64,000 bases of DNA from a virus, in the IMG/VR virus record IMGVR_UViG_3300017971_000243, positions 23,798 to 87,797 of that record; one strand, written 5' to 3'. Under the pieces are notes generated by a model. The model made no database searches and had not been told where the DNA came from. It saw only the letters and a list, made by a program, of their open reading frames with translations. Shown piece by piece: positions 19,302 through 42,588 of the stretch (position 1 is the stretch's first letter; each line of letters opens with the position of its first letter). Made by a program: the position numbers and the translations under genes.

Positions 19302-21178
19302 TGGCAAAAACTTTTATCAGATTTAATAATGTTGTTATTCCTGAGGAATCTGTTATAGCCAGAGCCTTTGTGGTTTTCACTTCTTATTCTTCTCTAGACT
19401 CTATAGATGCTAATGTTAAATGCTATTTTGCTAATCAAGATAATCCTTCCGCTCCTTCCTCTAAAAGTGATTTAGATAGTAGACCTTTGACCTCTTCTGT
19501 GGACTGGACAAACCTCCAAGAATGGGTAGATAATAGGGTGTACACTACTCCTGATCTCAGAGACATACTACAAACAGTGATGGATAGGGAGGGATGGGAG
19601 AGCGGTAATAGTGTTCTTTTTATAATGGAAGACGATAGTTCTGACACTGGATCCCGTCGTGAGTTTTCGGCTATTGAGTTCCTTAGTGGGGCTGAGAAAG
19701 CAGAACTTAGGTTGTCTTGGGAACCTCCACGTCAAATAGAGAGGGTGGATTTTATTCCTGCACCAGGGGCTTATAGTGAGGATGTGGATGTAGAGTTAGT
19801 AGCTTACCCTTCTGGATGTTCTATCTATTATACTTTAGATGGAAGTGATCCAGATGAAAATTCTTATCTTTATTCTTCTGCTCTTCCTTTGATCACTTCT
19901 GAGTATAATTATCATATAAGGGCTCGTGCTTACAAAGATCATTGGCTTCCAAGTGAAATATATGATGGTTATTATTTTACCACTACTATTGTTAAGGTTG
20001 AGGAGATATTTGATTCTGGTGAGAATCGTTTGAGGTATGTAGATATTGCTTTGGATTCTAATGATGTTCCTCATTTATTCTTTGGAAAGTTAAATCCTCT
20101 TGTAGGAGTACTTGGAAGTTATGAATTATATTATATCAATAGAATAGGAGGATCGTGGTCACCAATGGAATTGATCCGTCAGATTCCTTATGACGGTACT
20201 TATAGGCAGATTAATCGAGACATGGGTATAGTGATAGATAGTAATGACGACCCTATTGTTTACTGGTCTGAGAATAGAGAAAGTGGAATCTATAATGCTG
20301 ATTTTTGCAGGGCAAAGAAAAGTGGAGGATCTTGGTCATTAGAAACTCCAGTATCAGATCTAAGTTCTTATTTAGTATTGGATTTTGAATATTTTATAGA
20401 GGAAGATGATACAGAACATGTGATGTTTACTGACTATACAGGTGTATATCCTGTAAGATGGTTTTCGAGGAACCCTAACACTGGTAATTGGTCTTATGGT
20501 GGTCAATTTTCTAGTAATGTGGATTATGATTTTGTGATAGACAGTAATGGTTATATCCATTGTGTATATGGATCTAACAATCTTACCAGTATTTATTATA
20601 GGACTAATGCATCTGGTTCTTGGGTAACAGAGTCTTGGCTTCATCATCCAGAAAATGAAGATATAAAAATCTTTGGTACTTTCAATATAGGATTAGGTAT
20701 AGGAGATGAAGTTCATATAATGTGGGCTGGTAATGAGTATCATCAAGAAGCTGCCTGTGGTGGAATACATAGGTTTAATTCTAGAATCATAAGGTGGTAT
20801 AAGGATGAAGAAGGAACTTGGGTTCGAAGGATATATGAAGATGCTGGTAAGAAATGGGATGAGGCTGGGGATTGTAGAGATAATTGGTATACAGCATTAG
20901 ATATGGAAATGCTACCTATAAATGCAGAAAACAATGTGCCTAGTTTTGTAGGACGTTGGTGCAGTTATAGCACCTGTTACGTGACACTTTGGAGAGGGTA
21001 TGGAGCAAATATAAATATAGAAGGGGGATACGAAGAGGACGAATCTGCTGAGTGTAATGCTGTAGATAGTGATCTTAATAATCATTTAGCGTGGGTATGG
21101 GAAAACGAAGATGTAACTCCTAATACATATAAATTAAAATATGGAACCACTGCAATTGAGTGGAGAGAGTATTTGTAA
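19301..21178 (+). CDS. Tail fibre-like protein: CBM96-like, chitobiase-type and beta-propeller domains
   Basis: 625 residues. The N-terminal 145 residues (MAKTFIRFNNVVIPEESV, ending RLSW) are homologous to the next protein and resemble DNRLRE/CBM96-type carbohydrate-binding modules. Residues 150-225 match the chitobiase C-terminal/Fn3-like pattern (PGAYSEDVDVEL, YYTLDGSDPDENS). The rest has recurring D-S-N-D-x-P/I-H strands (LDSNDVPHLFFG, IDSNDDPIVYW, IDSNGYIHCVYG), as in a beta-propeller. Likely a receptor-binding or glycan-binding tail component. The stop overlaps the next start (TAATG). Confidence 0.6.
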   Translation: MAKTFIRFNNVVIPEESVIARAFVVFTSYSSLDSIDANVKCYFANQDNPSAPSSKSDLDSRPLTSSVDWTNLQEWVDNRVYTTPDLRDILQTVMDREGWESGNSVLFIMEDDSSDTGSRREFSAIEFLSGAEKAELRLSWEPPRQIERVDFIPAPGAYSEDVDVELVAYPSGCSIYYTLDGSDPDENSYLYSSALPLITSEYNYHIRARAYKDHWLPSEIYDGYYFTTTIVKVEEIFDSGENRLRYVDIALDSNDVPHLFFGKLNPLVGVLGSYELYYINRIGGSWSPMELIRQIPYDGTYRQINRDMGIVIDSNDDPIVYWSENRESGIYNADFCRAKKSGGSWSLETPVSDLSSYLVLDFEYFIEEDDTEHVMFTDYTGVYPVRWFSRNPNTGNWSYGGQFSSNVDYDFVIDSNGYIHCVYGSNNLTSIYYRTNASGSWVTESWLHHPENEDIKIFGTFNIGLGIGDEVHIMWAGNEYHQEAACGGIHRFNSRIIRWYKDEEGTWVRRIYEDAGKKWDEAGDCRDNWYTALDMEMLPINAENNVPSFVGRWCSYSTCYVTLWRGYGANINIEGGYEEDESAECNAVDSDLNNHLAWVWENEDVTPNTYKLKYGTTAIEWREYL

Positions 21179-24391: not shown

Positions 24392-25654
24392 ATGAAAATT
24401 GCAATCATGACAACATTTCAAGAGTTTCAACCAGGTTACAGTCTTACGGGTATTGTTAAGGATCAGGTAGAGATGCTCGCTCGTTATGACCATGAAGTTC
24501 ACCTTTTTGTAAATGAAAGGTATCATGGAGAGGACTTTCCAGGTAACGTACAATTAAGGAAGGAAATACCTTTTACTCACCTCAAAGATTATCATTCTGT
24601 GAGGGACCTGTCAGACGAGCATAAGATTATCAAAATTGAGACAGCCAAAAGGTTCGTCAAGATACTCGGTGAAGAGGAATTTGATGTAGTTTATACTCAT
24701 GACTTTGTTTTCATTGGTTGGAATATGCCTTATGGTGAAGCTATAAAGGAAGCTACTTCCAATCTACCAAAGGTAGTGTGGATGCACTGGATACACAGTA
24801 TCCCTTCAGGTGGTCCACGAGATTGGTGGAATATAGGGGAATACGGTCCAAATCATAAACTCATCTATCCAAACGAAACTGACCGTATTAGGGTAGCAGA
24901 GCACTATAAGGGGCAGATTCATGATGTTCGTTGTATACCTCACATTAAAGATATCCGTACATGGTTTGAATTTAGTGACGACACCAAGAGGCTGATTGAT
25001 AAATATCCAGGCATACTGAGTGCAGAATTCGTTCAATTACTACCTGCTTCAGTAGATCGACTGGCAGCCAAAAGGTTGCGTTATGTAATGAGTATCTTTG
25101 CTGAGCTTAAAGCTCATGGAAGAGAAGTGTTCCTTCTCGTAGCTAATCAGTGGGCTACTGGTAAACAACAGAAAGAAGATACTGATAAATATAGACAACA
25201 TGCGATAATGAAAGGATTGATTGATCAAGTAGACTTCGCCTTTACCAGCGACTTCGAGAGCCCCAAGTTTGATGTAGGCATTCCCCAGTATATGATCCGT
25301 GAGCTGTTTCTCTGTAGCAACCTGTTTATCTTCCCCACTAGGGAAGAGTCTTTTGGTCTTGTAGTACCAGAGGCGGCTTTGTCTGGAACCTATATGGTGC
25401 TAAATAAGTCTTTGCATCAGCAAATAGAGATTACTAAGGCCAATTGCCTCTATTTTGACTTTGGTAGCTTTAGTCATGATTTAAAGATTGAAGATCCAGA
25501 TAAATTCTTTCGTGATGTAGCTTTTATCATCATAGGCAGATTTAAAGAGAATGAGGCATTGAAAATCAAGACACACTGCCGCAGAACCTATAATTATGAT
25601 AATCTTTACCGTAAGTACTACGCACCCACAATGCAGGAGTTAAAATATAGATGA
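24392..25654 (+). CDS. GT-B glycosyltransferase (GT4-like)
   Basis: 420 residues, first gene of the operon, behind AAAGGAG. It has a Rossmann-type N-terminus (MKIAIMTTFQEFQPGYS), a mid-domain VVWMHWIHSI, and near residue 325 the GT4 signature EESFGLVVPEAALSG with the two spaced Glu that bind the nucleotide-sugar. Predicted to transfer a sugar from a nucleotide donor with retention. The acceptor is unknown; context suggests phage surface proteins. Cytoplasmic, with no signal peptide. Confidence 0.75.
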   Translation: MKIAIMTTFQEFQPGYSLTGIVKDQVEMLARYDHEVHLFVNERYHGEDFPGNVQLRKEIPFTHLKDYHSVRDLSDEHKIIKIETAKRFVKILGEEEFDVVYTHDFVFIGWNMPYGEAIKEATSNLPKVVWMHWIHSIPSGGPRDWWNIGEYGPNHKLIYPNETDRIRVAEHYKGQIHDVRCIPHIKDIRTWFEFSDDTKRLIDKYPGILSAEFVQLLPASVDRLAAKRLRYVMSIFAELKAHGREVFLLVANQWATGKQQKEDTDKYRQHAIMKGLIDQVDFAFTSDFESPKFDVGIPQYMIRELFLCSNLFIFPTREESFGLVVPEAALSGTYMVLNKSLHQQIEITKANCLYFDFGSFSHDLKIEDPDKFFRDVAFIIIGRFKENEALKIKTHCRRTYNYDNLYRKYYAPTMQELKYR

Positions 25655-26235
25655 GAAATTGGTACGAGAGTAAAAGAGTTAAAGGACTAAAGGCTCTTAT
25701 CAGTCATGAACTCGACAGCTTCCCTATAATACAGAAGGTGGTAAGGGATAGTAAGTTTAAGGTAATAGTGGAGTTGGGTACTTTTTATTATGGACTTACC
25801 TTGTTATTGCATGAGGCTGATCCTAAGGCTACTCTTTTTACCTTTGACAATATGGATGCTAGGACGAGTTTAGTACGTGCTAAAGGTAAAGTCACTAAGG
25901 AGGATTTGGAGTTCCTTATAAACCATGGTTTTGGTAAGAGGGTATCCTTTATAAGGTCAGATGTTATAGACAGGAAGAATATCATGCTGTCAGCCTTACT
26001 TGAAAGACCTGAAAAGAAACTCCTTTATTGTGATAATGGTAACAAGGACAGAGAAATCTGTTATTATGGTAAGCTGTTAAATAAAGGAGATGTGATGGGT
26101 GTTCATGATTGGGGATATGAAGTTCATCCTGAGAATCCTTGCGTTAAAGAGGTGCTTGATATGTTCAGAGGACATCCAGCTAATACTCATCTTAAACTTA
26201 AAAGCTGTACCACTCGCTTTTTCATAAAGGAATAG
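25651..26235 (+). CDS. SAM-dependent methyltransferase-like (cephalosporin-hydroxylase/MTase24-like fold)
   Basis: 194 residues. VIVELGTFYYGLTLLLHE (about residue 33) resembles motif I of class I methyltransferases. LFTFDNMD may be the acidic end of strand 2, and LLYCDNGNKDREICYYGKLL resembles the region before strand 5 in sugar O-methyltransferases of the CmcI-like group. It overlaps the first glycosyltransferase by four bases. It may cap a sugar hydroxyl; specificity cannot be read from sequence. Confidence 0.6.
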   Translation: MRNWYESKRVKGLKALISHELDSFPIIQKVVRDSKFKVIVELGTFYYGLTLLLHEADPKATLFTFDNMDARTSLVRAKGKVTKEDLEFLINHGFGKRVSFIRSDVIDRKNIMLSALLERPEKKLLYCDNGNKDREICYYGKLLNKGDVMGVHDWGYEVHPENPCVKEVLDMFRGHPANTHLKLKSCTTRFFIKE

Positions 26236-26236
26236 T

Positions 26237-26959
26237 ATGAGAGTGCCCTTGGGAATTATAACGTACCAACGTCCTGACTACTTAGGCAGAACACTCACTT
26301 CCTTCTTTAATGTTAATTATGATTGCTTAGAAGAATTTAGACCAGTAGTGGTGCTTGTGCAGGGCATGGATGACGCTACGATGAGAGTTCTAGATAGGTT
26401 TAAAGAGAGAATAGATAGGATTATTTCCCTTAAAAGTAATCATGGTTGTGCTTGGGGTTATTCCCTTTTAAATCAAGAGCTTTTAGAAGAAGGTACGGAT
26501 CTTGTAATGCACTTACAAGATGATTGGTTAAGTACGGAGCCTATTACTCACTACCTTTATGAGGATGACTTCTCTGGATATAAAAATAACAAAGGTATCT
26601 TTCAACTGTTTGAAGAAAGGGAGGATGTTGGGTATGCACGGCTTAGGTCGGCTACGTGGAGCAAGGTGAGTATTGTAAATAGAATCTCTAAAAAGACTAT
26701 CAAATGGAAGAAATGGGATACCAAGTTCAATAAGTACTGTCGTATTGTTATTGGTAATGCTCATTTTACCTTTAATCCTACTATCATTAGAACCTCCGTT
26801 TTAAAGCGTATGCTACCTGTAACTGAAGAGCACGATGCGATGGAGAAATATCATAAATTAGGTTTACTTGCTGGTCAGGTGAGAGGAAACTGTTTTATGC
26901 ACATAGGAGAAGAGAGGGCTACAACAGAAATTAGGGGAAAGGATAGGTGGGTAAGATGA
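26237..26959 (+). CDS. GT-A glycosyltransferase
   Basis: 240 residues. The N-terminal LGIITYQRPDYLGRTLTSFF is a GT2-type nucleotide-sugar-binding start, and VMHLQDDWL (about residue 92) carries the acidic DxD-like metal motif. It resembles the protein at 30017-30745, which has LQLEDDW at the same place, so the two are probably paralogous. One base separates it from the preceding stop. Confidence 0.65.
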   Translation: MRVPLGIITYQRPDYLGRTLTSFFNVNYDCLEEFRPVVVLVQGMDDATMRVLDRFKERIDRIISLKSNHGCAWGYSLLNQELLEEGTDLVMHLQDDWLSTEPITHYLYEDDFSGYKNNKGIFQLFEEREDVGYARLRSATWSKVSIVNRISKKTIKWKKWDTKFNKYCRIVIGNAHFTFNPTIIRTSVLKRMLPVTEEHDAMEKYHKLGLLAGQVRGNCFMHIGEERATTEIRGKDRWVR

Positions 26960-27660
26960 GTAGAAAGAAGAAACCTACCCCTTTCTCTATACAGTTAAAG
27001 AAATGGTATCCTAGGATGGAAGATAGATCCTCCATCATTCATAAGTTTATTTCTATTCACATACCAAGAACAGGAGGGACTACTTTTCGCAACCTTCTGT
27101 TTTATTGGTATGGTATTTTAAATGTGCTTCATGATGAAACAAGTAAGAGGTATATTCCTGATATAATAAAAGCCTCTCCTCCTCCTAATGCTACTCTATT
27201 TGACATAATACATGGGCATTTTCATCATACTAAGTATGATTATTTAGGATTGCCTATGGTCACATGGGTAAGGAATCCTATAGATATGGTTGCAAGTCAG
27301 TTCTATTCTCTTAAAATTCATAATACTACTGCCAGGTCTCCAGAAATACACATAAAGATAATAAAGGAGGAGATGACTCTAATAGATTTTGCTAGGTACG
27401 AAGGCACTCGTAATCCTATTAGTAAGTTTATTGGAGGAACAGATTTAGATAAATTCGACTTTATAGGCATAACAGAGTATTACGATGAGAGCTTACAGAG
27501 ATTTGGTAAGTGGAGTGGTATGCCTATTCCAAATGCTTATCCTATTTATAATTTTAGAGACTACCCGGAGATAAGTAAAAAGGAAAGAGATATAATCGGA
27601 AAATACAATAAAAAAGATCTAATAATATATGATGAAGCGGTTAAGAGGTTTGCACCTTGA
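26956..27660 (+). CDS. Sulfotransferase (PAPS-dependent)
   Basis: 234 residues. SIHIPRTGGTTFRNLL (about residue 30) is the 5'-phosphosulfate loop of carbohydrate sulfotransferases of the 2-O-sulfotransferase type. TWVRNPIDMVASQFYSL (about residue 105) is the 3'-phosphate-binding element with Arg and a downstream Ser. These enzymes move sulfate from PAPS to sugar hydroxyls, so the host must supply PAPS. The ATG at 26956 overlaps the previous stop and follows AGGTGG; the GTG at 26947 is less likely. Confidence 0.8.
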   Translation: MSRKKKPTPFSIQLKKWYPRMEDRSSIIHKFISIHIPRTGGTTFRNLLFYWYGILNVLHDETSKRYIPDIIKASPPPNATLFDIIHGHFHHTKYDYLGLPMVTWVRNPIDMVASQFYSLKIHNTTARSPEIHIKIIKEEMTLIDFARYEGTRNPISKFIGGTDLDKFDFIGITEYYDESLQRFGKWSGMPIPNAYPIYNFRDYPEISKKERDIIGKYNKKDLIIYDEAVKRFAP

Positions 27661-28796
27661 GGTTGATTTTCTTATTTAATAGTGATGGAGCAGCACAAGA
27701 AGGATCTAATGTGCCTTGGGATCCTCACGCTCAATCTAATAATTTTTATGCTACAGGTGAAAATGGATTGCCTAGCGAAGGGTACCTGTATATGCTCCGC
27801 GAAATGCTTAATCAGGGTATAATAGATGACCTTCTTATTTTTATCGAATCCTCTCGCAGTCCAGGTTATACCACTTATTTTAATCATGTTAAGTGTTATG
27901 TAGTTCCTGAGATAGGATATGCACATCAGTTCTTGAGATCAGATGATATAATTTGGGCAAGAGGTGGATTTAGAAGTTGGTTTAACTTTTTAAACCGTAT
28001 GAAGAAAGAAAGGCGTTGGTTGCTGGTTTACGCAGCCAATACAGGTAGGGCACGGTGGAAGTTCTGGGACGTTGTTTTTGACGACCTTTATGGGAAGCAT
28101 CGTTATGATTCCCGAGGTAGATTTTTTTACTACTTCAAAAAGCCTATAAATCCGGATTACTTCCGGCCTCTTCCTGATATTAAGAAGAGGTATGATATCT
28201 GCGTTGGTGCATCGCACGTCCACGACAAGAAAGGTCAGTGGAAAACCATTGAGGTCATCGCGGAGTATAAAAGGCTTTTTAATCAAGACCTCCACTGTAT
28301 AATGCCAGGTCGTGTAACTCACGGGGTCAAAACAAACCAGATAGGTTCAACTATAAATAGTGCCCGTCTGTCAGTACACTGTCCTGGTATGCTCCACCGC
28401 ACAAAGGTGGCTGAGGTTTTAAACCAAAGCCACCTTTCTGTCTTTATGGGACAAGGCGGGCAGAATGATAGGGGTCCAATAGAATCGCTGGCCTGTGGAA
28501 CTCCTATACTCTTGGCGGGGACTGCCCGCCATTGTCCTTCTATTTGGAAAGATAATCCTTTTTGTCATGTATCTTCAAACCCTGATGATATAAGCAGCAT
28601 AGCTCATGAACTTAGGAATGCAATCCTTACCTTCCGTAAAAAGGGAATAAAGCAGAGGTGTTATGATGATTTTCAAAAGCGTAATGGTCTTTATGATGTA
28701 ATATTACCTGAAATGGAAAGACTGTTCCGTGTAATTAGAAAGAATCCTAAACCAGATATTCAACCTTTAATAAAGGAATATATTGAAAATGATTGA
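27657..28796 (+). CDS. GT-B glycosyltransferase (GT4-like)
   Basis: 379 residues with a TTG start at 27657 that overlaps the previous stop (TTGA) and lies after GAGG. GPIESLACGTPILL near residue 280 is the GT4-type donor-binding segment. YDICVGASHVHDKKGQW around residue 180 looks like the start of the C-terminal Rossmann domain. Codon use and spacing match the rest of the operon. Acceptor unknown. Confidence 0.7.
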   Translation: MRLIFLFNSDGAAQEGSNVPWDPHAQSNNFYATGENGLPSEGYLYMLREMLNQGIIDDLLIFIESSRSPGYTTYFNHVKCYVVPEIGYAHQFLRSDDIIWARGGFRSWFNFLNRMKKERRWLLVYAANTGRARWKFWDVVFDDLYGKHRYDSRGRFFYYFKKPINPDYFRPLPDIKKRYDICVGASHVHDKKGQWKTIEVIAEYKRLFNQDLHCIMPGRVTHGVKTNQIGSTINSARLSVHCPGMLHRTKVAEVLNQSHLSVFMGQGGQNDRGPIESLACGTPILLAGTARHCPSIWKDNPFCHVSSNPDDISSIAHELRNAILTFRKKGIKQRCYDDFQKRNGLYDVILPEMERLFRVIRKNPKPDIQPLIKEYIEND

Positions 28797-29382
28797 TTTA
28801 AGAACAATGTATAAAGGAAGATATTTTGCAAGAAGAAGCAGTTTAGAGTGGAGAGCAAAGGCTGTATGTGATGCTATTTGTAAAGTATTAGATCCTAAAT
28901 CTGTGATAGATGCAGGGTGTGCTGTTGGAGATCTAATAAAAGAGTTTGACAAAAGAAAGATAATGTGCTATGGGATAGAGGGTACGGATAATGTAGTTCC
29001 CTACCTTTTGGTTCCTAAAGATAAAGTTTTCATCAAAGACCTGAGACTTCCACTTAACTTAGGTCTAAGTTTTGATCTTGCAATTTGTTTAGAGGTAGCA
29101 GAGCATATAGATGAAGAGTGTGCAGATCAATTTGTTGAGAATTTAACCAATCTCTCCAAAAGAGTTCTAATTTCAGCCGCTCCTCCTGGACAAGGAGGTC
29201 ACGGTCATGTCAACTGTCAGCCTTACACCTATTGGGTATTCAAGTTTGTTAATAGAGGTTTTATTAACGGGCAATCTATTCAGGATAGAGTAAAGAATCT
29301 GTTAAAACCTTGGAAAGACAAGAAAGGAATCAAAGCCTATTACGATAACATGATGTATTTTGAAAGGATAAAGCCGTTTTGA
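28789..29382 (+). CDS. Class I SAM-dependent methyltransferase
   Basis: About 197 residues. Motif I SVIDAGCAVGDLIKEF, strand 2 CYGIEGTD, and the post-motif LAICLEVAEHIDEE give a clear class I methyltransferase core. It resembles small sugar O-methyltransferases. The ATG at 28789 overlaps the preceding stop region and follows AAGGA; an in-frame TTG at 28783 is less likely. Probably methylates a sugar or glycan intermediate. Confidence 0.7.
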   Translation: MIDLRTMYKGRYFARRSSLEWRAKAVCDAICKVLDPKSVIDAGCAVGDLIKEFDKRKIMCYGIEGTDNVVPYLLVPKDKVFIKDLRLPLNLGLSFDLAICLEVAEHIDEECADQFVENLTNLSKRVLISAAPPGQGGHGHVNCQPYTYWVFKFVNRGFINGQSIQDRVKNLLKPWKDKKGIKAYYDNMMYFERIKPF

Positions 29383-30008
29383 GGAAGTTTGTTTTTGTTC
29401 ATATACCTAAATGTGGAGGCACTTCTTTTAATATTACGGTAAGGGAAAAGTTTAAAGATAAGATATTTAGGGATCGTCATTTTAGGAAAGACAGATACTT
29501 GGGAATGATAAAATTTACTGATAGGTCTGAAAAGGGTTACCCTGGTGGTTTTGACGAAAACTACCATGTAGGCGTTATTGGTCATTTTACAGCCAATAAG
29601 TATAAGCATTTAGGGTGGCCTATGATTACTTTCCTTAGGGATCCTGTAGACAGATTGATTTCCTATTACTCTGTTTGGAAGCACGGGGCTGAGGGAATTA
29701 AATCAAAGAATATATTTTGGTTCGCCCGTCAATTTCCTAACTATATGCATCTAATGACAGGCGGGGATTTAGATCAATTTGCTTTTGTAGGTATTACAGA
29801 GAGGCATGAAGAAAGTATGAGAATAATAGAAAAGATTTTGGGATTTGAAATCATACATAAGATGCATGCCAACAGAACTCCTGGTAGGAAGAAGTTTAGG
29901 TTTAGTGGACGTACCAGGAGAATACTTGATGAAATAAATCAAGAGGATAGAAGTATTTACAATGAGGCATTAAGTAGGTTTGATATAATGGCTCAAAGAT
30001 ATCTATAG
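29379..30008 (+). CDS. Sulfotransferase (PAPS-dependent), second copy
   Basis: 209 residues, TTG start overlapping the previous stop (TTGA). FVHIPKCGGTSFNITV at the N-terminus is the 5'-phosphosulfate loop and TFLRDPVDRLISYYS (about residue 88) the 3'-phosphate-binding motif. It shares layout with the sulfotransferase at 26956-27660 (GGDLDQFAFVGITE against GTDLDKFDFIGITE), so one probably arose by duplication. Two sulfotransferases suggest two sulfation positions or acceptors. Confidence 0.8.
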   Translation: MRKFVFVHIPKCGGTSFNITVREKFKDKIFRDRHFRKDRYLGMIKFTDRSEKGYPGGFDENYHVGVIGHFTANKYKHLGWPMITFLRDPVDRLISYYSVWKHGAEGIKSKNIFWFARQFPNYMHLMTGGDLDQFAFVGITERHEESMRIIEKILGFEIIHKMHANRTPGRKKFRFSGRTRRILDEINQEDRSIYNEALSRFDIMAQRYL

Positions 30009-30016: not shown

Positions 30017-30745
30017 ATGATAGATGTTACAATCACAGCTTGCAGAAGGCGTGAATTACTATTCAAGACTCTTAATTCTTTTTTAGAAAACCTTTTATGG
30101 AACCATGACTTTAGAATTATTATTAATGTGGATCCTGTAGGAGTAAATGAGGACAGCTATAAGTCGATAGAATTATGCTATTGGTTCGCAGAACCCGTTA
30201 TTGCTCGCTGTCCAGCAGAGCCTAATTTTAGTGATGCTTTTAAGTGGTGTTGGGATCAGGTAGAAAATAATTGGATCTTACAACTGGAAGACGATTGGGA
30301 ATTGTTGCAAAGGGTGGACTTACGACATATGATGGGAATATTAGAATCATATCAAGATCTTGCACTTCTGCGCCTACCTCAGTTTAAGTGTGGCAAGGAT
30401 GGTATGAAGAACTGGGATCGTTGGTTTCCCTGGAATGGCACTTATTATGAATGCCCAGAGGAAATTAAACAAGCAGTAGGTTTCTGTGGTCATCCTTCCC
30501 TTATAAAGGGATCCTTCGTTAAAGCCTGTCGCCAACATCTACTCACCGATCGTAATCCTGAAAAGCAATTTCATGGGGGTAATGAAGCATTGGTAAACGA
30601 GGTGATGCATTGGAAGTATGGGGTATATGGTCATCCAGGAGAGCCTAATTATATACGAGATATGGGGAGGGAGTGGGCTGTTAAGAATGGATGGAAAAAG
30701 AAAGGTAATAAAGCTCACTTTATGATATGGGAAAAGGAAGAATGA
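30017..30745 (+). CDS. GT-A glycosyltransferase
   Basis: 242 residues, behind AGGAGG. The N-terminus (MIDVTITACRRRELLFKTLN) is GT2-like and WILQLEDDWELL near residue 92 has the acidic metal-binding motif. FHGGNEALVNEVM near residue 195 may be the acceptor-side helix. Similar in size and layout to 26237-26959. It overlaps the next gene by four bases. Confidence 0.65.
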   Translation: MIDVTITACRRRELLFKTLNSFLENLLWNHDFRIIINVDPVGVNEDSYKSIELCYWFAEPVIARCPAEPNFSDAFKWCWDQVENNWILQLEDDWELLQRVDLRHMMGILESYQDLALLRLPQFKCGKDGMKNWDRWFPWNGTYYECPEEIKQAVGFCGHPSLIKGSFVKACRQHLLTDRNPEKQFHGGNEALVNEVMHWKYGVYGHPGEPNYIRDMGREWAVKNGWKKKGNKAHFMIWEKEE

Positions 30746-31653
30746 AGGTACTTTATCTTTTTCACAAAGGAGCGAATGGATATTATCTTGAGAATGTAGT
30801 AAGGGAAATGAATTTATTTCCAGATATATCTTCCTCCATAGTTTACTTTTCAAGATTTAAGGAAAGTATGTTAGAGGAAGATTATGATGTACTTATTTAT
30901 GAAACTTTTCCTGATGAGTACAATCCTAAAAAGTTTAATAAGGAAACGGTGGACTATTTTGATAACATATTCTTAAAGTTTAAAGGGGTTAAGATACTAC
31001 ACGACACCCATGATGATGGTAACAAGGATGGATACACTAGATTTGATGATATAACTCCTTACCCTCCAGTTATAAAAGCATTTACAGGTAAGTACTACCC
31101 TAAAATTGATTATGTAATATTGAATACCAGTTTAAGTTTGTCTGATGCTAAGGTGTATAGAGATGAATTCGATAGGGACATTTCAATAAGTTTCAAGCAT
31201 GGTCAAATAGGAGTTGAATATTATCCTCATTATGTTAGGGAGTCGGTTCGTAAAATATTGAAAGTTAATAAAGATCTTCCTGATGTTAGTTATAAAAGGG
31301 TGGAAGGTAGAGAGAATTATATTCAAGAATTAAGAAGAACTCTAATAAGTGTGGGCTGCTGTGGTTTTGGACAGTATTCAGGATCTTACGCAGATTGCTT
31401 AAAAGCTGGTGCTTTGCTGTATGCTCATTGTTCCTTGGAGGATATCCACTTTCTGCCTAATGAAGATTTAGTAGATGGGGAAGATTATATATCTTGGAAC
31501 TCCCATAATTTTCATTCTAAACTTAAATGGTTATTAGATAATCCTTTATTGATAGATCGGGTTAGGAAGAATGGGAGAGAAAAGTTCAAGAAATCTTTTA
31601 GCTATGATAGGTCTGCAATTAAATTGATAAATTATTTAAAGAAGGAGGTATGA
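30742..31653 (+). CDS. Glycosyltransferase-like protein (CgeB-type)
   Basis: 303 residues starting MKVLYLFHKGANG. The ATG at 30742 overlaps the previous stop (ATGA). The C-terminal half (SVGCCGFGQYSGSYADCLKAGALLYAHC, then LVDGEDYISWNS) resembles the donor-binding domain of CgeB-like glycosyltransferases, although the usual E-x7-E pair is not clear. The N-terminal part has VLIYETFPDEYNP and KILHDTHDDGN. Likely a GT-B enzyme of the same pathway. Confidence 0.55.
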   Translation: MKVLYLFHKGANGYYLENVVREMNLFPDISSSIVYFSRFKESMLEEDYDVLIYETFPDEYNPKKFNKETVDYFDNIFLKFKGVKILHDTHDDGNKDGYTRFDDITPYPPVIKAFTGKYYPKIDYVILNTSLSLSDAKVYRDEFDRDISISFKHGQIGVEYYPHYVRESVRKILKVNKDLPDVSYKRVEGRENYIQELRRTLISVGCCGFGQYSGSYADCLKAGALLYAHCSLEDIHFLPNEDLVDGEDYISWNSHNFHSKLKWLLDNPLLIDRVRKNGREKFKKSFSYDRSAIKLINYLKKEV

Positions 31654-31654: not shown

Positions 31655-32530
31655 ATGAATTATTGCAATCCAGAAGGTTTCCGTAATGAGATTAAATTAT
31701 TAAGGGAACAGGGAAGAGATAAGTTCTTTAGTTGGTTTGATGGACCTAAAGGTGAAAATGAAACTACGGATGCGGCTTTTGAAAAGGCAGAGGATGTTTT
31801 CAACAGGCTTATGCTTCCAAGTGCCAAAAAGTATCTTAAGAAACTTAATACCAAGACTTCTTTAGATATAGGTTATGGAAGTGGTGGACAAGTTTTGGCT
31901 GCCTCATTGTATTTTGACAAGGCATATGGTTTAGATGTTCATGAAGAAGCCGACTTTGTTATGGAAGAACTCAATAAGAGGGGAATTAAGGACGAAGAGG
32001 TAGAATTAGTAGTAGGAGATGGTAAAACAATTCCACTTCCAGAAGAGAGTATTGATTTTGTCCACAGTTGGGTTACGTTTATGCACTTAGGAACGGTGGA
32101 AAATATCAGAAATTATTTGAAAGAGGTTTACCGTGTTATGAAACCAGGAGGAGTTGGAGTAGTTTTCTTTTCCAGAATGCTAAGGTCAGCTCTTCACCAG
32201 CCTTGGTCTGAGGTACTGAAAGACATCGAAAAGGAGAAAGAAGGACCAGGATATCGTGAAGGCGGACCTAAAACTAAAGTTCGTGGCATTAACATACAGA
32301 TGTCAATGTGGTATATGGAAGACTTGGCAAAGAGTACAGGATTTGATTTATTAGATAGAACGGGGTCCTGGGATATGATACACAAGCGCAGGTATTTTTT
32401 TGGTCAGTATGGTATCGTATTTAGAAAACCCTCTACCAAATCTTCTACCACTTCTAAAAGTGTATCAAGCACAGATGTTGAAAGTACTCCAGCAAGACCC
32501 AGAAGGAAATTGTTTAGTGGAAATAAATAA
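31655..32530 (+). CDS. SAM-dependent methyltransferase with Ser/Thr-rich tail
   Basis: 291 residues behind AAGGAGG. TSLDIGYGSGGQVLAASL (about residue 66) is motif I, AYGLDVHEE strand 2, VVGDGKTIPLPEESIDFVHSW motifs II/III, and YRVMKPGGVGVVFF the post-III region, so this is a Methyltransf_11-type enzyme. The last 35 residues are Ser/Thr-rich and basic, unlike normal methyltransferases, and could themselves be an O-glycosylation acceptor or a docking tail. It is the last gene before the second intergenic repeat. Confidence 0.75.
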   Translation: MNYCNPEGFRNEIKLLREQGRDKFFSWFDGPKGENETTDAAFEKAEDVFNRLMLPSAKKYLKKLNTKTSLDIGYGSGGQVLAASLYFDKAYGLDVHEEADFVMEELNKRGIKDEEVELVVGDGKTIPLPEESIDFVHSWVTFMHLGTVENIRNYLKEVYRVMKPGGVGVVFFSRMLRSALHQPWSEVLKDIEKEKEGPGYREGGPKTKVRGINIQMSMWYMEDLAKSTGFDLLDRTGSWDMIHKRRYFFGQYGIVFRKPSTKSSTTSKSVSSTDVESTPARPRRKLFSGNK

Positions 32531-32580: not shown

Positions 32581-32652
32581 TCAGCGTCAATTTTAACGTG
32601 TAATTACATGACTTTACGACAATCTCGCAGGAGAAGAAAGGAATACGATAAA

Positions 32653-33624
32653 ATGGCAGAACTTTCAGTAATTATACCGTATGTAAATGAATATCCACAG
32701 CTGATATTCACTTTGCAATCCATCGCAGGAGAGCTGCGTGACAGGGTAGACTTCGAGATCGTAGCAGTAAACAATTATTGTGATCAATTTGTGAATCAAA
32801 GAAAGACTCAGAACCTACCTTGGGAAGAGGATAAGGGAGCCGAAGCCATTAAAGCTACAGCTCAGAAACAGAACCCATGGTTGAAACATGCAGAGTATTC
32901 TGAAAGGCTGTCCCATTGGAATGCCAAAAGGGTGGGTGTTAAGCACAGCACTGGTGATTATTTATTTTTTGTGGATTCACACGTTATCCTTGCTCGTGAC
33001 AGCCTTTATGGTATGCTCCAGTACTATAAGCAGAATGAGGAAAAGATAAACGGATCAATGCACTTACCACTCACTTATAAAATATTAGAATCTCGTAGGT
33101 TGATATACAAACTTAATGTTGAGTGGTTTGAACATGGGTTACTTGACTACAAATTCACACCCTGTCGTGTAGACAAAGGAGATCCTTTTGAGGTTCCCTG
33201 CATGAGTTGTTGTGGAGTACTCGTATCAAGAAAAGTATATGAAGCATTAGGAGGTTGGTCTCCTGAGCTTGGTATATATGGAGGAGGTGAGAACTTTTTT
33301 AATTTTACCCTATCCGTTTTGGGAATGAATAAATGGATCTATCCTAATGGTACTTGTTTCCATCATGGTGAAAGGAGAAGCTATCATTACCTTTATGATG
33401 ACTATGTACGCAATAAGCTCATCGCTTGTTACCTTTATGGAGGAAGGGATTATGCACTCAAAGCTATTAATGGGGGTCTCAAGGGGAAACCTGAAGTTCT
33501 TCACTCTATTTATAGGAATGTAGACCTGAAATGTCGCCGCCACAGAGATCATATTCAAAGGCGTCAAAAGGTCAGTATAGAGGATTGGGTAAAGAAGTGG
33601 ATGCCCCCAGACGCTTCTGCCTGA
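32653..33624 (+). CDS. GT-A glycosyltransferase resembling polypeptide GalNAc-transferases (GT27-like)
   Basis: 323 residues. GT2/GT27-type start LSVIIPYVNEYPQLIFTLQS; metal motif FFVDSHVIL (about residue 110), where the DxH form is characteristic of polypeptide GalNAc-transferases rather than the usual DxD; then GGWSPELGIYGGGENFFNF (about residue 205), resembling the WGGEN segment of that family; then TCFHHGERR, where GT27 enzymes have a metal-ligand His. GT27 enzymes attach GalNAc to Ser or Thr of mucins, which fits the Ser/Thr-rich proteins encoded on both sides. The ATG at 32653 follows AAGGA; another ATG is at 32608. Confidence 0.7.
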   Translation: MAELSVIIPYVNEYPQLIFTLQSIAGELRDRVDFEIVAVNNYCDQFVNQRKTQNLPWEEDKGAEAIKATAQKQNPWLKHAEYSERLSHWNAKRVGVKHSTGDYLFFVDSHVILARDSLYGMLQYYKQNEEKINGSMHLPLTYKILESRRLIYKLNVEWFEHGLLDYKFTPCRVDKGDPFEVPCMSCCGVLVSRKVYEALGGWSPELGIYGGGENFFNFTLSVLGMNKWIYPNGTCFHHGERRSYHYLYDDYVRNKLIACYLYGGRDYALKAINGGLKGKPEVLHSIYRNVDLKCRRHRDHIQRRQKVSIEDWVKKWMPPDASA

Positions 33625-33758: not shown

Positions 33759-34183
33759 AAAAATCTATTTATGTAGTAATTCTGTCATTGGTAATTATTT
33801 TTAGTGCTTACGCATTAGATTGGCAAAAAACCAACCAGGCAACTGTTGCCTGGGATGCTGTAACTACCTTGGAGGATGGTACAGTAATACCTGCTGGAGA
33901 TGTAATTAAGTACAATGTCTACCTGGCTAATTTTAAGACCGATCCTAACAAAGAGAATCCTTCTTTGCTCACTACTACACCTATTGTTGATTTACAATAT
34001 GTTATTACTTTGAATACCGAAGGTCGCTATTTAGTAGGTGTTAGTGCTGTTAGGTTTGATTCAGAAGGAACTTTATTAGAAGAGAGTGAGGTTAACTGGT
34101 CGGATACTAATGGGGAATATACGCCAAACCCTTTCGGTATCGTGCATCACGTTCCACCGGGCAAGCCGAAGAACTTGAGGTAA
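33755..34183 (+). CDS. Exported Fn3-like protein
   Basis: 142 residues behind AAGGGAGG. An N-terminal signal peptide is clear: KKS, a hydrophobic core of about 14 residues, then SAYALDW, with cleavage probably after the Ala of YAL. The mature part (ATVAWDAVTT, IKYNVYLANF, YLVGVSAVRFDSEG) reads as one fibronectin type III-like beta-sandwich. Secretion of a phage Fn3 protein suggests a periplasmic or surface role. It could bind glycans or the host envelope. Confidence 0.6.
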   Translation: MKKSIYVVILSLVIIFSAYALDWQKTNQATVAWDAVTTLEDGTVIPAGDVIKYNVYLANFKTDPNKENPSLLTTTPIVDLQYVITLNTEGRYLVGVSAVRFDSEGTLLEESEVNWSDTNGEYTPNPFGIVHHVPPGKPKNLR

Positions 34184-37322: not shown

Positions 37323-37636
37323 GCAAAGGAAAATGGAAAATATATTACACCGACAGTAGCTTTAACGACGAACAGGGCTCCCCTAGGGAGGCACCGTTCT
37401 GGGACGTGCAAGACATTATTCAGTATGATTTGCACACCGAGAGAAAATATCACCAGAACGGTAGCGACTGGTATATTTTCCAAGACGGCTTCTGGGTGGG
37501 TGTGGACATGATAGGTTTAATTGACTACATGGCACATTATAAGGGAGAAATAATCGTGAAGGCGGGGCGCACCATACCCTCTAAACAATGGCAAAAAATA
37601 TTCGATACGGCAAGGAAAGACCCGTACATTAAATGA
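37319..37636 (+). CDS. Hypothetical tail-region protein
   Basis: 105 residues, WKIYYTDSSFNDEQGSP at the start and rich in aromatic residues. The pattern WYIFQDGFWVGVDMIGLIDY suggests a compact beta fold. It overlaps both neighbours by four bases and lies between two large fibre genes, so it is probably a fibre assembly or attachment factor. Not recognised. Confidence 0.5.
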   Translation: MSKGKWKIYYTDSSFNDEQGSPREAPFWDVQDIIQYDLHTERKYHQNGSDWYIFQDGFWVGVDMIGLIDYMAHYKGEIIVKAGRTIPSKQWQKIFDTARKDPYIK

Positions 37637-40600
37637 CAAATCCAATTTATACACAGGAGGACTTTCAGGGCTACAAAGACGATGCCGTTCCTGGTAGCGC
37701 AACCACGAAAGCCTCGCTTAATAATGATTGGACGCAGAATACTGATGAGAACTTCCGCATCCGTTTTGCCGTTGTGGAGTCGAACAACAAGGCGGAAGCT
37801 AACCCGATGTTCGAACTGGAATACCGCTACGATTCCACCGGCACGGGGTCAAGCTATGGCTCTTGGACTCAAGTAACAACCACATCAGTCGAAATAGCCT
37901 TCTCGACTACCACCTACTATACTGACGGCGACCTTGACAATAACAAGCGGGTTTATGACGGAGGTGCATCGTCCAGCGGAGATTTCGGTGAGCTGAGTGA
38001 CGGCGCAACCAACGACACGATTGCTGACACCATCGACTTCGGGGGAAATGAGTTCTGTGAGATGGAGGTCTGCCTCCAGATTAATTCTGTGAACGTTGTC
38101 AATGGTGGTTTGATACAGGTTAGGGTTAAAGACCCGAATTTATCGACATTTGACGAGACGCCCACGATCACGATTTCCTCGCCTACCACTACCACGAGTA
38201 CTACCACTACCACCTTTAGTACTACAAGTACCAGCACCTATTCAACCACAAGTACCAGTACAAGCACTCAAACAAGTACAAGTACCAGCACTCAAACAAG
38301 TACAAGTACCAGCACCTATTCTACCACAAGCACCAGTACAAGCACCTACTCAACTACCAGCACAAGCACCAGCACTTTCAGTACAACCACTACCTTTAGT
38401 ACAACTAGTACTACAACTACCGAACCTCCTTCTACTTGTAATATACAACAGTATGGAGGTACTAATAATTATCAACTAGTATGGTTGCCTGGTGGTGAAA
38501 TATTAATAACCACTGATGATGAACTTACAGCCTCAGAAACTTTGGAGTTCCTATTAGAGTGTGAAGGGGAGGCTGCTACTACCACTACCACTACCACTAC
38601 TTTTACTACGACCAGTACAAGTACCAGCACCTACTCAACAACCAGCACCTATTCTACCACCAGTACAAGTACCAGCACCTATTCAACTACCAGCACCTAT
38701 TCTACCACCAGTACTTCTACTAGTACCTATTCTACCACCAGTACTAGCACTCAAACAAGTACCAGCACTAGCACCTTAAGTACAACCAGCACCAGTACCA
38801 GTACAAGCACTTCAACCTATTCAACCACCAGTACAAGCACCAGCACTTCTACCAGTACCTATTCAACTACCAGTACAAGTACCAGTACAAGCACCAGTAC
38901 CAGCACATACTCAACCACAAGTACCAGTACCAGTACAAGTACCAGTTCCTATTCAACTACCAGTACAAGTACCAGAACAAGCACAAGTACTTCAACCTAT
39001 TCAACCACTAGCACATCTACTAGCACAAGTACTTCAACCTATTCAACCACAAGTACCAGTACCAGCACTAGTACATATTCAACCACAAGTACCAGTACCA
39101 GCACAAGTACCAGCACATACTCAACAACCAGCACAAGCACCAGCACATACTCAACCACCAGCACCAGCACTAGTACATATTCAACCACAAGTACCAGCAC
39201 TAGCACAAGCACCAGCACATACTCAACCACAAGTACAAGTACCAGCACAAGCACCAGCACATACTCAACAACCAGTACCAGCACAAGCACCAGTACCAGC
39301 ACATACTCTACTACAAGTACCAGTACCAGCACAAGCACCAGTACCTATTCAACCACAAGCACCAGTACCAGTACTTCTACCAGCACATACTCAACTACAA
39401 GTACCAGTACCAGCACAAGCACCAGTACCTATTCAACCACAAGCACCAGCACATACTCTACCACAAGCACTAGTACCAGCACATACTCTACCACAAGTAG
39501 CAGTACCAGCACATACTCAACTACAAGTACCAGTACCAGTACCAGCACCAGTACATACTCAACAACCAGCACTTCTACCAGCACATACTCAACAACCAGT
39601 ACCAGTACAAGCACCAGCACCAGTACATACTCAACAACCAGCACCAGCACCAGCACCTATTCAACCACAAGTACCAGTACAAGCACCAGCACCAGTACAT
39701 ACTCAACAACCAGCACCAGCACCAGCACATACTCAACCACAAGTACCAGTACCAGTACAAGCACCAGCACATACTCTACCACAAGTACAAGTACTAGTAC
39801 ATATTCAACCACAAGTAGCAGTACCAGCACTTCTACCAGCACATACTCAACAACCAGCACTTCTACCAGCACATACTCAACAACCAGCACAAGCACCAGC
39901 ACATACTCAACCACAAGTACCAGTACCAGCACAAGTACCAGCACATACTCTACTACAAGTACCAGCACCAGCACATACTCTACTACAAGTACCAGTACCA
40001 GCACAAGCACAAGCACCAGCACTTTCAGTACAACTAGTACCTTCAGTACCACTACAACTACAGAACCAGGAGAAACTACCACCAGTTCCACAACTACTAC
40101 TTCCTTTACAAGCACCAGCACCAGCACATACTCAACTACCAGCACAAGCACCAGCACATACTCAACCACAAGTACCAGTACCAGTACCTACTCTACCACA
40201 AGTACCAGTACCAGCACAAGCACCAGCACATACTCAACCACAAGTACAAGCACTAGTACATATTCAACCACCAGCACATCTACTAGTACAAGCACTTCAA
40301 CCTATTCAACCACAAGTACCAGTACCAGTACAAGTACCAGTACCTATTCAACCACAAGCACCAGTACCAGTACTTCTACCAGCACCTACTCAACAACCAG
40401 CACATCTACTAGTACAAGCACCAGCACATACTCTACTACAAGTACCAGCACCAGTACTTCTACCAGCACCTACTCAACAACCAGCACCTACTCTACTACA
40501 AGCACCAGCACCTACTCAACAACCAGCACATCTACTAGTACAAGCACCAGCACATACTCTACTACAAGTACCAGCACCAGTACTTCTACCAGCACATACT

Positions 40601-42588
40601 CAACCACAAGTACAAGCACCAGCACATACTCAACCACAAGTACAAGTACCAGCACAAGCACCAGCACATACTCAACTACCAGTACTTCTACCAGTACATA
40701 CTCGACAACCAGCACCAGCACCAGCACCAGCACCAGCACATACTCAACCACAAGTACCAGTACCAGTACAAGTACCAGCACATACTCAACCACAAGTACA
40801 AGTACCAGCACCTACTCTACAACCAGTACATCTACTAGCACAAGTACCAGCACATACTCAACCACCAGTACCAGCACTAGTACATATTCAACAACCAGCA
40901 CAAGCACCAGTACTTCTACCAGCACCTCAACTTATAGCACTACCAGTACCTTCAGTACCACTACGACTACAGAACCAGGAGAAACTACCACTAGTTCTAC
41001 AACCACTACTTCCTTTACAAGCACCAGCACATCTACCTTCAGCACAACTAGCACCAGTTCTAGTACTTCTACCAGTACCTACTCAACCACCAGTACCAGT
41101 ACCAGTACCAGTACAAGCACTTACTCTACAACCAGTACAAGTACCAGCACATACTCAACCACAAGTACCAGTACCAGTACAAGTACCAGCACATACTCAA
41201 CCACCAGCACTAGTACTTCAACCTATTCAACCACCAGTACAAGCACCAGTACTTCTACCAGTACATATTCAACCACAAGTACAAGCACCAGTACAAGCAC
41301 CAGTACATACTCAACTACCAGCACTAGTACTTCAACCTATTCAACCACCAGTACAAGTACCAGCACCAGCACATCTACCTTCAGCACAACTAGCACCAGC
41401 ACATCCACCTTCAGCACAACTAGCACCAGCACATCTACCTTCAGCACAACCAGCACCAGCACATACTCTACCACAAGTACCAGCACATCCACCTTTAGTA
41501 CCACCAGTACAAGCACCAGCACATACTCTACCACAAGTACCAGCACATACTCAACCACAAGTACCAGCACATACTCAACCACAAGTACCAGCACATACTC
41601 TACTACAAGCACTAGCACATACTCAACCACAAGTACCAGTACCAGCACCTACTCAACCACAAGTACCAGTACCAGCACTAGTACATATTCAACCACAAGT
41701 ACCAGTACCAGCACAAGTACCAGCACATACTCAACAACCAGCACAAGCACAAGCACCTATTCGACCACCAGTACAAGCACAAGCACCAGTACCAGTACCA
41801 GTACCAGTACCTACTCTACTACTAGTACAAGCACCAGTACAAGCACCAGCACATACTCTACCACAAGTACCAGCACATCCACCTTTAGTACCACCAGTAC
41901 AAGCACAAGCACCAGCACCAGTACCAGCACAAGTACCTACTCGACAACCAGCACAAGTACCTACTCGACAACCAGTACCAGTACCAGCACAAGCACAAGC
42001 ACAAGCACCTTCAGTACCACTAGTACTCTCAGCACAACGAGCACTACTGGAACAGGAACAACTTCTAGTACTTCTACCAGCACCTTCAGTACAACCAGCA
42101 CCTATTCAACCACAAGTACCAGCACATCTACTTCTAGTACTTACAGTACCACTACGACTACATACCCTCCCTCTGAGGAGCCCCACATTGGATTTACCCG
42201 TGACGAGGTCACGTTAGGATATAAAAGAGATGTTGTAACATTAGGATTTAAGGAGGTGATTGAGGTGGGCAGCACACCAAAAGTAAAGAACTTTTTCAAG
42301 CAACCTTGGGAGTCCTTCGTGCCATATGGTGACTTTGAGGATGTACTCGAGAGTGGAGAAACTATAGACACCAATAACTCTACCGTAACTGCTAAGGATA
42401 AGGACGGCAATGCTGTTACTGATATATTGTCAGGCAGTCCCTATGTGGTAGATGTTTACAAATACTGTCAAAGAGTGGTTAGCGGGGATCCAGACTTAGA
42501 TCCTTATCTAATCACTTTTCGCATACAGACTAATCTTAACAATAAATGGGAAGTTGATGTTAAGATGAAAGTAGGTGAGTTAGTATGA
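37633..42588 (+). CDS. Giant mucin-like Ser/Thr-repeat virion protein
   Basis: 1651 residues. A folded N-domain (1-180) begins TNPIYTQEDFQGYKDD and is beta-rich. Then come Ser/Thr stretch I (about 184-264), a small folded island (about 268-312, QQYGGTNNYQLVWLPGGE), and Ser/Thr stretch II (about 314-1510), interrupted twice by a TEPGETTTSS spacer. A folded C-domain (1511-1651) begins EPHIGFTRDEVTLGYKRD. The repeat unit is close to TSTSTYSTTS, with one Tyr or Phe per unit and no Pro. Fibre or brush protein; proposed main O-glycan carrier. Overlaps both neighbours by ATGA. Confidence 0.75.
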   Translation: MTNPIYTQEDFQGYKDDAVPGSATTKASLNNDWTQNTDENFRIRFAVVESNNKAEANPMFELEYRYDSTGTGSSYGSWTQVTTTSVEIAFSTTTYYTDGDLDNNKRVYDGGASSSGDFGELSDGATNDTIADTIDFGGNEFCEMEVCLQINSVNVVNGGLIQVRVKDPNLSTFDETPTITISSPTTTTSTTTTTFSTTSTSTYSTTSTSTSTQTSTSTSTQTSTSTSTYSTTSTSTSTYSTTSTSTSTFSTTTTFSTTSTTTTEPPSTCNIQQYGGTNNYQLVWLPGGEILITTDDELTASETLEFLLECEGEAATTTTTTTTFTTTSTSTSTYSTTSTYSTTSTSTSTYSTTSTYSTTSTSTSTYSTTSTSTQTSTSTSTLSTTSTSTSTSTSTYSTTSTSTSTSTSTYSTTSTSTSTSTSTSTYSTTSTSTSTSTSSYSTTSTSTRTSTSTSTYSTTSTSTSTSTSTYSTTSTSTSTSTYSTTSTSTSTSTSTYSTTSTSTSTYSTTSTSTSTYSTTSTSTSTSTSTYSTTSTSTSTSTSTYSTTSTSTSTSTSTYSTTSTSTSTSTSTYSTTSTSTSTSTSTYSTTSTSTSTSTSTYSTTSTSTYSTTSTSTSTYSTTSSSTSTYSTTSTSTSTSTSTYSTTSTSTSTYSTTSTSTSTSTSTYSTTSTSTSTYSTTSTSTSTSTSTYSTTSTSTSTYSTTSTSTSTSTSTYSTTSTSTSTYSTTSSSTSTSTSTYSTTSTSTSTYSTTSTSTSTYSTTSTSTSTSTSTYSTTSTSTSTYSTTSTSTSTSTSTSTFSTTSTFSTTTTTEPGETTTSSTTTTSFTSTSTSTYSTTSTSTSTYSTTSTSTSTYSTTSTSTSTSTSTYSTTSTSTSTYSTTSTSTSTSTSTYSTTSTSTSTSTSTYSTTSTSTSTSTSTYSTTSTSTSTSTSTYSTTSTSTSTSTSTYSTTSTYSTTSTSTYSTTSTSTSTSTSTYSTTSTSTSTSTSTYSTTSTSTSTYSTTSTSTSTSTSTYSTTSTSTSTYSTTSTSTSTSTSTYSTTSTSTSTSTSTYSTTSTSTSTYSTTSTSTSTSTSTYSTTSTSTSTYSTTSTSTSTSTSTSTYSTTSTFSTTTTTEPGETTTSSTTTTSFTSTSTSTFSTTSTSSSTSTSTYSTTSTSTSTSTSTYSTTSTSTSTYSTTSTSTSTSTSTYSTTSTSTSTYSTTSTSTSTSTSTYSTTSTSTSTSTSTYSTTSTSTSTYSTTSTSTSTSTSTFSTTSTSTSTFSTTSTSTSTFSTTSTSTYSTTSTSTSTFSTTSTSTSTYSTTSTSTYSTTSTSTYSTTSTSTYSTTSTSTYSTTSTSTSTYSTTSTSTSTSTYSTTSTSTSTSTSTYSTTSTSTSTYSTTSTSTSTSTSTSTSTYSTTSTSTSTSTSTYSTTSTSTSTFSTTSTSTSTSTSTSTSTYSTTSTSTYSTTSTSTSTSTSTSTFSTTSTLSTTSTTGTGTTSSTSTSTFSTTSTYSTTSTSTSTSSTYSTTTTTYPPSEEPHIGFTRDEVTLGYKRDVVTLGFKEVIEVGSTPKVKNFFKQPWESFVPYGDFEDVLESGETIDTNNSTVTAKDKDGNAVTDILSGSPYVVDVYKYCQRVVSGDPDLDPYLITFRIQTNLNNKWEVDVKMKVGELV
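38184..38425 (+). repeat. Ser/Thr-rich mucin-like coding repeat I (gene 37633-42588)
   Basis: About 80 codons of S/T with Y, F and Q. It includes QTSTSTST units not seen in the other gene. Confidence 0.85.
38574..42163 (+). repeat. Ser/Thr-rich mucin-like coding repeat II (gene 37633-42588)
   Basis: About 1195 codons, nearly all S or T, with units TSTSTYSTTS and TSTSTSTYSTTS. Two spacer motifs (TTTTTEPGETTTSS, near 40050 and 40955) split it into three blocks. Thr is encoded mainly by ACC, ACA and ACT and Ser by AGT, AGC, TCA and TCT in no fixed order. The opposite strand is open over long stretches because of the composition; those antisense frames are not genes. Confidence 0.9.

Follow-up and report, generated by a model that had tools for sequence, protein, structure and literature searches.

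A candidate phage-encoded O-glycosylation module that occurs with Ser/Thr-rich tails and repeats on phage proteins

Introduction

Why does a tailed phage carry a run of predicted sugar-handling genes among its tail genes, and on what would their products act? The question is raised by a stretch of 64,000 nucleotides (hereafter the window) that forms part of an 87,797-base virus record, IMG/VR IMGVR_UViG_3300017971_000243. Genes for a portal, a head protease, an HK97-type capsid and a tape-measure protein mark the phage as tailed, and its replication genes lie on the opposite strand. The original prediction for this locus, made from its letters alone, was that the phage builds a sulfated, mucin-type O-glycan coat on its own fibres and, through Thr-rich tails, on capsid and tail. 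Here we describe the enzymes and their candidate acceptors, follow both across related and unrelated phages, and weigh the resulting interpretation against its alternatives. Genes are named by their first nucleotide in the window.

Results

Enzymes encoded by the block

Eleven contiguous ORFs occupy positions 24392-33624 on the + strand, with spacings of -19 to +77 nt, and are bounded by two Ser/Thr-repeat proteins. All eleven had been expected to be carbohydrate-tailoring genes; the contiguity holds, but several of the enzyme labels are weak. The first gene (24392..25654), which we call the signature gene, encodes a GT4 glycosyltransferase with one Pfam model above its cut-off. Pfam also supports well a GT2 glycosyltransferase (32608..33624), which has in addition a weak PHROGs match to 'GtrB-like O-antigen conversion' (E 0.008), and an accessory methyltransferase (31655..32530). 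The C-terminal stretch of the latter is itself Ser/Thr-rich and basic. The protein at 30017..30745 has no Pfam match; its AlphaFold (AF2) model (pLDDT 94.4) has a GT-A glycosyltransferase fold and matches SpsA, chondroitin polymerase and TarP, and an acidic LE(D/E)DW motif is present in 24 of 24 sequences compared. An accessory sulfotransferase (29379..30008) scores 28.9 bits against PF03567, for which the cut-off is 22, and matches the PHROGs entry 'Galactose-3-O-sulfotransferase' (5.9e-7); its likely paralogue at 26947..27660 (Pfam 0.019) shares 31.5% identity with it (E 3.7e-15). Weaker labels are likewise given to a GT4-like glycosyltransferase at 27657..28796 (Pfam 0.0032, PHROGs 0.0053) and a methyltransferase-like protein at 28783..29382 (E 1.5e-5, below the curated cut-off). 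The last three are hints only, comprising a possible O-methyltransferase-like protein at 25651..26235 (no Pfam match of its own, one homologue matching RMNT_CmcI at 0.15), a possible GT2-like glycosyltransferase at 26237..26959 (Pfam 0.043) and a possible GT4-like glycosyltransferase at 30727..31653 (Pfam 0.08). No sugar-nucleotide synthesis gene was identified within the block, and none of the 11 proteins contains a membrane-like segment (19-residue window, mean hydropathy of 1.6 or more).

The AlphaFold model of the signature enzyme (pLDDT 94.7) also has a glycosyltransferase fold, of the GT-B type. In Foldseek and VIA comparisons it matches GT-B enzymes including BshA, MshA, PimA, TarM and SdgB, with a large rmsd across both domains. 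The EX7E motif is a feature of retaining GT4 glycosyltransferases and is fitted by E319 and E327, which are found in 48 of 48 aligned sequences. A single-protein scan with 24392 returned only two same-species copies, and an eight-member alignment retrieved 139 relatives in IMG/VR viral contigs, 80 of which were kept. The A1 profile matched no solved structure at E 0.01. By tblastn, 24392 matched nothing in 50,697 deposited phage records, and two of its weaker relatives and 30017 were likewise unmatched among deposited phages. Genome contigs yielded two relatives, and the MAGs to which these contigs belong are labelled Deltaproteobacteria or Desulfobacteraceae, which is only a hint of the host.

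Four companions of the signature gene are recurrent. Among 75 dereplicated loci with a 24392 relative, the flanks held 32608 in 35, 27657 in 32, 28783 in 29 and 30017 in 28, while 31655 was found in 8 and 25651 in 5. A search with the 30017 family gave matches in 17 of 45 records holding the signature gene. Sulfotransferases are much rarer. PF03567 turned up in 3 of 22 records, namely the window's own species together with two copies nearly identical to it, in 4 of another 50 (L203, L204, L212 and L220, all of which hold 24392 relatives together with Ser/Thr tails or repeats) and in 0 of 11 control-cassette records. On these counts we rejected the sulfotransferase as a defining part of the module. 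As few lineages carry a sulfotransferase, sulfation, probable though it is in the window's species, would be an optional cap if it occurs.

Several features lie elsewhere on the phage. Two small proteins each have one strongly hydrophobic segment, and could be secreted (33755-34183) or holin-like (42585-42941). Short tandem repeats occupy 63865-64000, the window closing with 4.3 perfect copies of a 24-base unit. Candidate 7-deazaguanine DNA-modification genes, encoding a queuine tRNA-ribosyltransferase-like protein, a GTP cyclohydrolase and a QueE-like protein, were observed at 59573-60760 of the window and at L001:403-990 and L001:1636-2292, all on the - strand.

Ser/Thr repeats and C-terminal tags

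The two proteins flanking the block had been put at about 400 and 1280 residues of Ser/Thr repeats, and recounting gave 435 and 1309. The first, a fibre-like protein without a Pfam match (21178..24330, +), carries its repeats in two segments (nt 21973-22530 and 22930-23676); its ORF is open from a GTG at 21160, and by eye its N-terminal part resembles that of the protein at 19301-21178. The second is a giant fibre-like protein (37633..42588, +) lying three further genes after the block end, with repeats at nt 38143-38445 and 38560-42183 and a Ser plus Thr content of 74% overall. Outside the repeats it matches a protein with Ser/Thr repeats in each of G003, G004, G008 and G011. The repeat core is [YF]STT, most commonly spaced at 10 or 14 residues, and the DNA of the long Ser/Thr arrays is itself tandemly repetitive.

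Short Ser/Thr tags were also found at the C-termini of three proteins encoded upstream, all on the + strand. The major capsid protein (gene 5231-6559) ends in ...ATSTTTTTSSSTTTTTTA-COOH (6485..6559), a head or head-tail protein (gene 7231-7896) in ...RPTTTTTTTYTTTTTTTA-COOH (PTTTTTTTYTTTTTTTA; 7840..7896) and the likely major tail (tube) protein (gene 10207-10827) in ...NTTTYTTTTTTTA-COOH (10780..10827). As neither the 7231 nor the 10207 protein has a Pfam or PHROGs match, their roles are assigned from position, for the latter that before the tape measure gene. All three tags finish in ...TTTTTTA-COOH. The corresponding DNA motif (ACN x6-GCN-TRA) has three exact in-frame matches in the window and none in 100 shuffles, and when one 13-residue draw was taken at random from each of 76 proteins, three tags were never reached in 2000 trials. 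The Thr-rich tails predicted for capsid and tail are therefore present, and prove to be the best evidence, at the sequence level, for a glycosylation reading. A survey of titles and the starts of abstracts found no description of phage virion proteins with C-terminal Ser/Thr tags.

Relatives of the capsid gene carry the tag at 24 of 39 loci, and two others (L006 and L034) are cut before the capsid end. Untagged relatives end approximately where the tag starts, the three proteins of G010 finishing in ...YILDVA, ...SEDTR and ...RIAWA. Across 27 distinct tagged capsids the Ser/Thr make-up is kept, whereas third bases agree at 0.31 vs 0.27 expected by composition; all four Thr codons and all six Ser codons, from both Ser codon boxes, are in use. 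Conservation of the capsid tag is thus at the level of the protein. On a quick capsid tree of 67 proteins the 27 tagged members form one group and the tag needs one change, so these members are not independent of one another.

Tagged ORFs number 90 in all, and in 87 of these the body measures at least 50 residues. They fall into 32 sequence clusters, 16 of which have two or more members, and a few singletons may be chance ORFs. The final residue is Ala or Val in 54 of the 90, vs approximately 15% among ORFs at least 100 aa long. Thr-Pro type tails (such as ...TTTTEPPPTTTTTV and ...TTTTAAPVTTTTTTA) replace pure Ser/Thr tags in G034 (L361-L363) and G029 (L356-L360), both of which hold the signature gene.

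Co-occurrence of the signature gene with Ser/Thr features

A locus was scored as positive where 9 of the last 13 residues of a protein were Ser/Thr, at least 5 of them Thr, or where Ser/Thr reached 75% over 30 residues. Dereplication reduced the 24392 loci from 81 to 75, L083 (same species as L082) being removed first, and the controls from 56 to 40; a set of 41 rows omits L190 (same species as L128). On fetched flanks, 49 of the 75 loci were positive (36/51 at 40% identity or more, 13/24 below). By contrast, positives were absent from loci of a control phage glycosyltransferase, taken from another sugar cassette, that of untagged relatives (0/40), and from random viral loci (0/43). The 43 random loci, 401 kb in total, were on average shorter than the 75 loci with 24392 (1252 kb), and per 100 kb the counts came to 0 vs 9.34. 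The records are environmental and often fragments, and loci inside one phage group are non-independent.

At 40% identity or more, the 15 negative loci were then judged on their whole records, and the 11 negatives below 40% on flanks. Six of the 15 were positive by the same rule, three had weaker Thr tags and six had none, which puts Ser/Thr features in 42-45 of the 51 closer relatives. The six without tag or repeat are G026, G033, G037 (20.0 of 22.5 kb read), G042, G044 and G047, five of them records of 11-30 kb. In the five long tagged records (the window, G003, G004, G008 and G011; 79-89 kb), relatives of 24392, 27657, 28783 and 30017 follow the tail genes, and all five encode long Ser/Thr proteins; a 32608 relative is present in four, G003 ending inside the block. 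G004 and G008 each have one more Ser/Thr-rich ORF, overlapping a longer ORF on the opposite strand.

With the tags as the starting point, the 24392 gene is present in 13 of the 40 tagged records listed, and in 10 of the 14 of those that are at least 20 kb, vs 0 of 50 untagged records (50 of the 52 untagged loci were used). The other 27 of the 40 are mostly short fragments and include four of 40-103 kb (G107, G108, G110 and G117); nor was the gene found in two further tagged records, G013 (35.8 kb) and the 20 of 21 kb that were read of G007. Among the pattern matches listed, block genes occur at 6/60 loci with an in-frame tag vs 0/58 without. At 15 of 68 loci the immediate upstream neighbour of the glycosyltransferase is Ser/Thr-rich, and at 29 of 68 this holds for one of the three closest genes; adjacency is common but not general.

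The single gain of the tag within the capsid family led us to compare gene content, for INDEPENDENCE. Records that share head genes with the window phage and lack 24392 have no tags (G010, G016, G020, G070, G072, G073, G074, G077 and G078; in G077 terminase and portal matches are absent). Conversely, where a 24392 gene occurs at 41-58% identity and the terminase, portal and capsid genes of the window phage are missing, it is other proteins that bear the tags, examples being G023, G025, G027, G038 and G045. Gene and tags therefore go together across phages that share no head genes.

Fifteen control records were read whole. G076 has head genes, Ser/Thr repeats and a Thr-rich tail, and its 24392 relative is distant (E 3.3e-49, 26% identity), whilst G075 is a partial exception, with three Ser/Thr-rich ORFs (tail proteins) and no 24392 gene. 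Two short Ser-rich ORFs overlapping other genes were seen in G010 and one weak acidic tail in G071; the remaining 11 showed no Ser/Thr feature. The other sugar cassette of untagged relatives lies at L064:4724-15229 in G010, between the 7231 and 8291 homologues, and near the same place in G016, G020 and G021. It encodes a GT4/GT9 fusion, a GT2, a DegT aminotransferase, two radical SAM proteins and a methyltransferase. A 24392 relative accompanies this cassette in one of 20 records, G076. The co-occurrence that had been proposed as a check is borne out, in that the signature gene is mostly accompanied by Ser/Thr tails or repeats, in unrelated phages too, and the control glycosyltransferase and random loci are without them.

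Discussion

Comparison with known systems

Phage-encoded glycosyltransferases have been reported to glycosylate the virions of a few cultured mycobacteriophages, including Che8 and Rita (Freeman et al. 2023; PMC12619734, PMC11256854), and the glycans of capsid and tail-tube subunits are described at their C-termini (PMC12619734). In the Cluster O mycobacteriophage Corndog, an O-methyltransferase and glycosyltransferases lie within the structural operon, between portal and protease genes, and capsid modification is suggested by the authors (PMC4351075). Given these C-terminal glycans and operon enzymes, a system of this kind is already known. The window phage resembles the mycobacteriophages in having its own glycosyltransferases, with candidate acceptor tags at the C-termini of its capsid and likely tail-tube proteins.

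However, the two are distinct in several respects. By hhalign the 24392 family matches Che8 gp108 with a probability of 0.3 percent and the 30017 family matches gp109 with 0.4 percent, each family being unrelated to the Che8 enzyme set against it; the two enzymes are among the three annotated Che8 glycosyltransferases. The Che8 capsid ends in ...NKTGS and its major tail protein in ...YSDGS, neither with a Thr tag. Moreover, the Che8 glycosyltransferase genes are near the right genome end, away from the tail genes, unlike the window block, and the parts of Che8 listed include no repeat fibres or sulfotransferases, both of which the window phage has. The window module thus appears to work like the mycobacteriophage case but to stand outside that family, and to differ from Che8 in its two modelled enzyme families, Ser/Thr tags, repeat fibres and optional sulfotransferases. 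The suggestion that no described phage has the full combination needs qualifying accordingly: the capsid and tail-tube glycans of mycobacteriophages are a near precedent, whilst the tags are absent from the Che8 capsid and tail proteins.

At serine-rich repeat adhesin loci, glycosyltransferase genes adjoin the repeat gene, and the window likewise has a Ser/Thr repeat protein beside its glycosyltransferase genes. The Ser/Thr repeats of these adhesins, found in Gram-positive bacteria, are glycosylated inside the cell (PMC6973325). However, the adhesins are cell-surface proteins exported via accessory Sec, and no such genes were recognised in the window. The staphylococcal glycosyltransferases SdgA and SdgB act on repeat-rich proteins (PMC3794999), and the fold of SdgB matches that of 24392 (Z 14.8, 8% identity, rmsd 16.5), as do those of many other GT-B enzymes, equally well or better.

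A proposed glycosylation module and its alternatives

We think it likely that the locus encodes a transferable, cytosolic O-glycosylation module for the virion, with acceptor tags encoded in its target proteins and with sulfotransferases as accessories. The acceptors would be the long Ser/Thr repeats of the fibre-like proteins and the short C-terminal tags of the capsid, head and tail-tube proteins, glycosylated in the cytosol before or during assembly with the use of host sugar donors. The glycan would be built and capped by the phage-specific 24392 with its recurrent partners 27657, 30017 and 32608 and the methyltransferase 28783, and species-specific extras, here the two sulfotransferases and further methyltransferase-like proteins, would decorate it. 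Tags and repeats are, we infer from sequence, where the enzymes act, and the order of action and the sugar are put forward in the same spirit. As its gene tracks the tags, 24392 is taken as the most likely tag-reading enzyme; it or a partner would recognise the T(n)-[A/V]-COOH end, and 24392 could lengthen a glycan instead of initiating it. The original prediction that phage enzymes glycosylate Ser/Thr-rich virion parts is, as a whole, partly supported: the co-occurrence (49/75 vs 0/40 and 0/43) speaks for it, but the sequence evidence does not bear out a 'mucin-type' chemistry or the benefits proposed. If there is a benefit, it most likely would be shielding of the particle, from proteases or binding factors, or tuning of adsorption, both of which are plausible.

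An unlikely alternative is that the target of the block is the host surface (O-antigen, capsule or exopolysaccharide), for instance in superinfection exclusion, the Ser/Thr stretches being flexible linkers with no part in it. Phage glycosyltransferases are well known to convert serotypes, and the weak GtrB-like match of 32608 would fit it. However, an O-antigen conversion (gtr) cluster has a membrane flippase and membrane-bound glycosyltransferases, and since all 11 block proteins lack a membrane-like segment we rejected host O-antigen conversion. The position of the block among tail genes and the tracking of Ser/Thr tags by the signature gene across phages argue against a host-surface target more widely.

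We give equally little credence to the view that tags and repeats serve in their own right in structure or adhesion, as sticky Thr-rich ends, as spacers or as sites of another modification such as phosphorylation, their link to the glycosyltransferases reflecting shared ancestry or habitat. The single gain of the tag in the capsid family, the tagged records without the gene and G075 are in keeping with this. However, the tags are spread over 32 sequence clusters, and they accompany the gene in phages that have no terminase, portal or capsid genes in common.

Modification of phage DNA by the glycosyltransferases is very improbable. DNA glycosylation is known in phages, and the candidate 7-deazaguanine genes are present; however, the block adjoins tail genes and tracks Ser/Thr tags, and DNA glycosylation was rejected on the finding of no hydroxymethylated-base enzyme in the scanned subset of ORFs. 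Least credible of all, and already unlikely from the sequences as an origin of the tags, is a DNA-level simple-repeat expansion with no protein function, which would suit the tandemly repetitive long arrays but was rejected for the capsid tag on its full range of Thr and Ser codons, its near-random third bases (0.31 vs 0.27) and the Ser/Thr kept in 27 distinct capsids, the same tag moreover ending three proteins in the window phage and its relatives.

Within the preferred reading of a virion glycosylation module, we hold at even chances a more specific proposal, namely that the short C-terminal Ser/Thr end, mostly closed by Ala or Val, acts as a portable glycosylation signal for a glycosyltransferase family confined to phages, that unrelated phages gained it in parallel on capsid, connector, tail-tube and fibre proteins, each protein carrying its own instruction for the coat as a detachable tag, and that a second, unrelated sugar cassette replaces the module in relatives.

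A module with a visible acceptor code would occur in many uncultivated phages (139 relatives in IMG/VR, 80 kept). Because a C-terminal tag makes the targets readable from sequence, it becomes possible to test directly which virion proteins get sugar-coated, and why. Provided that it is real, the tag would also serve as a compact, genetically encoded handle for glycosylating proteins.
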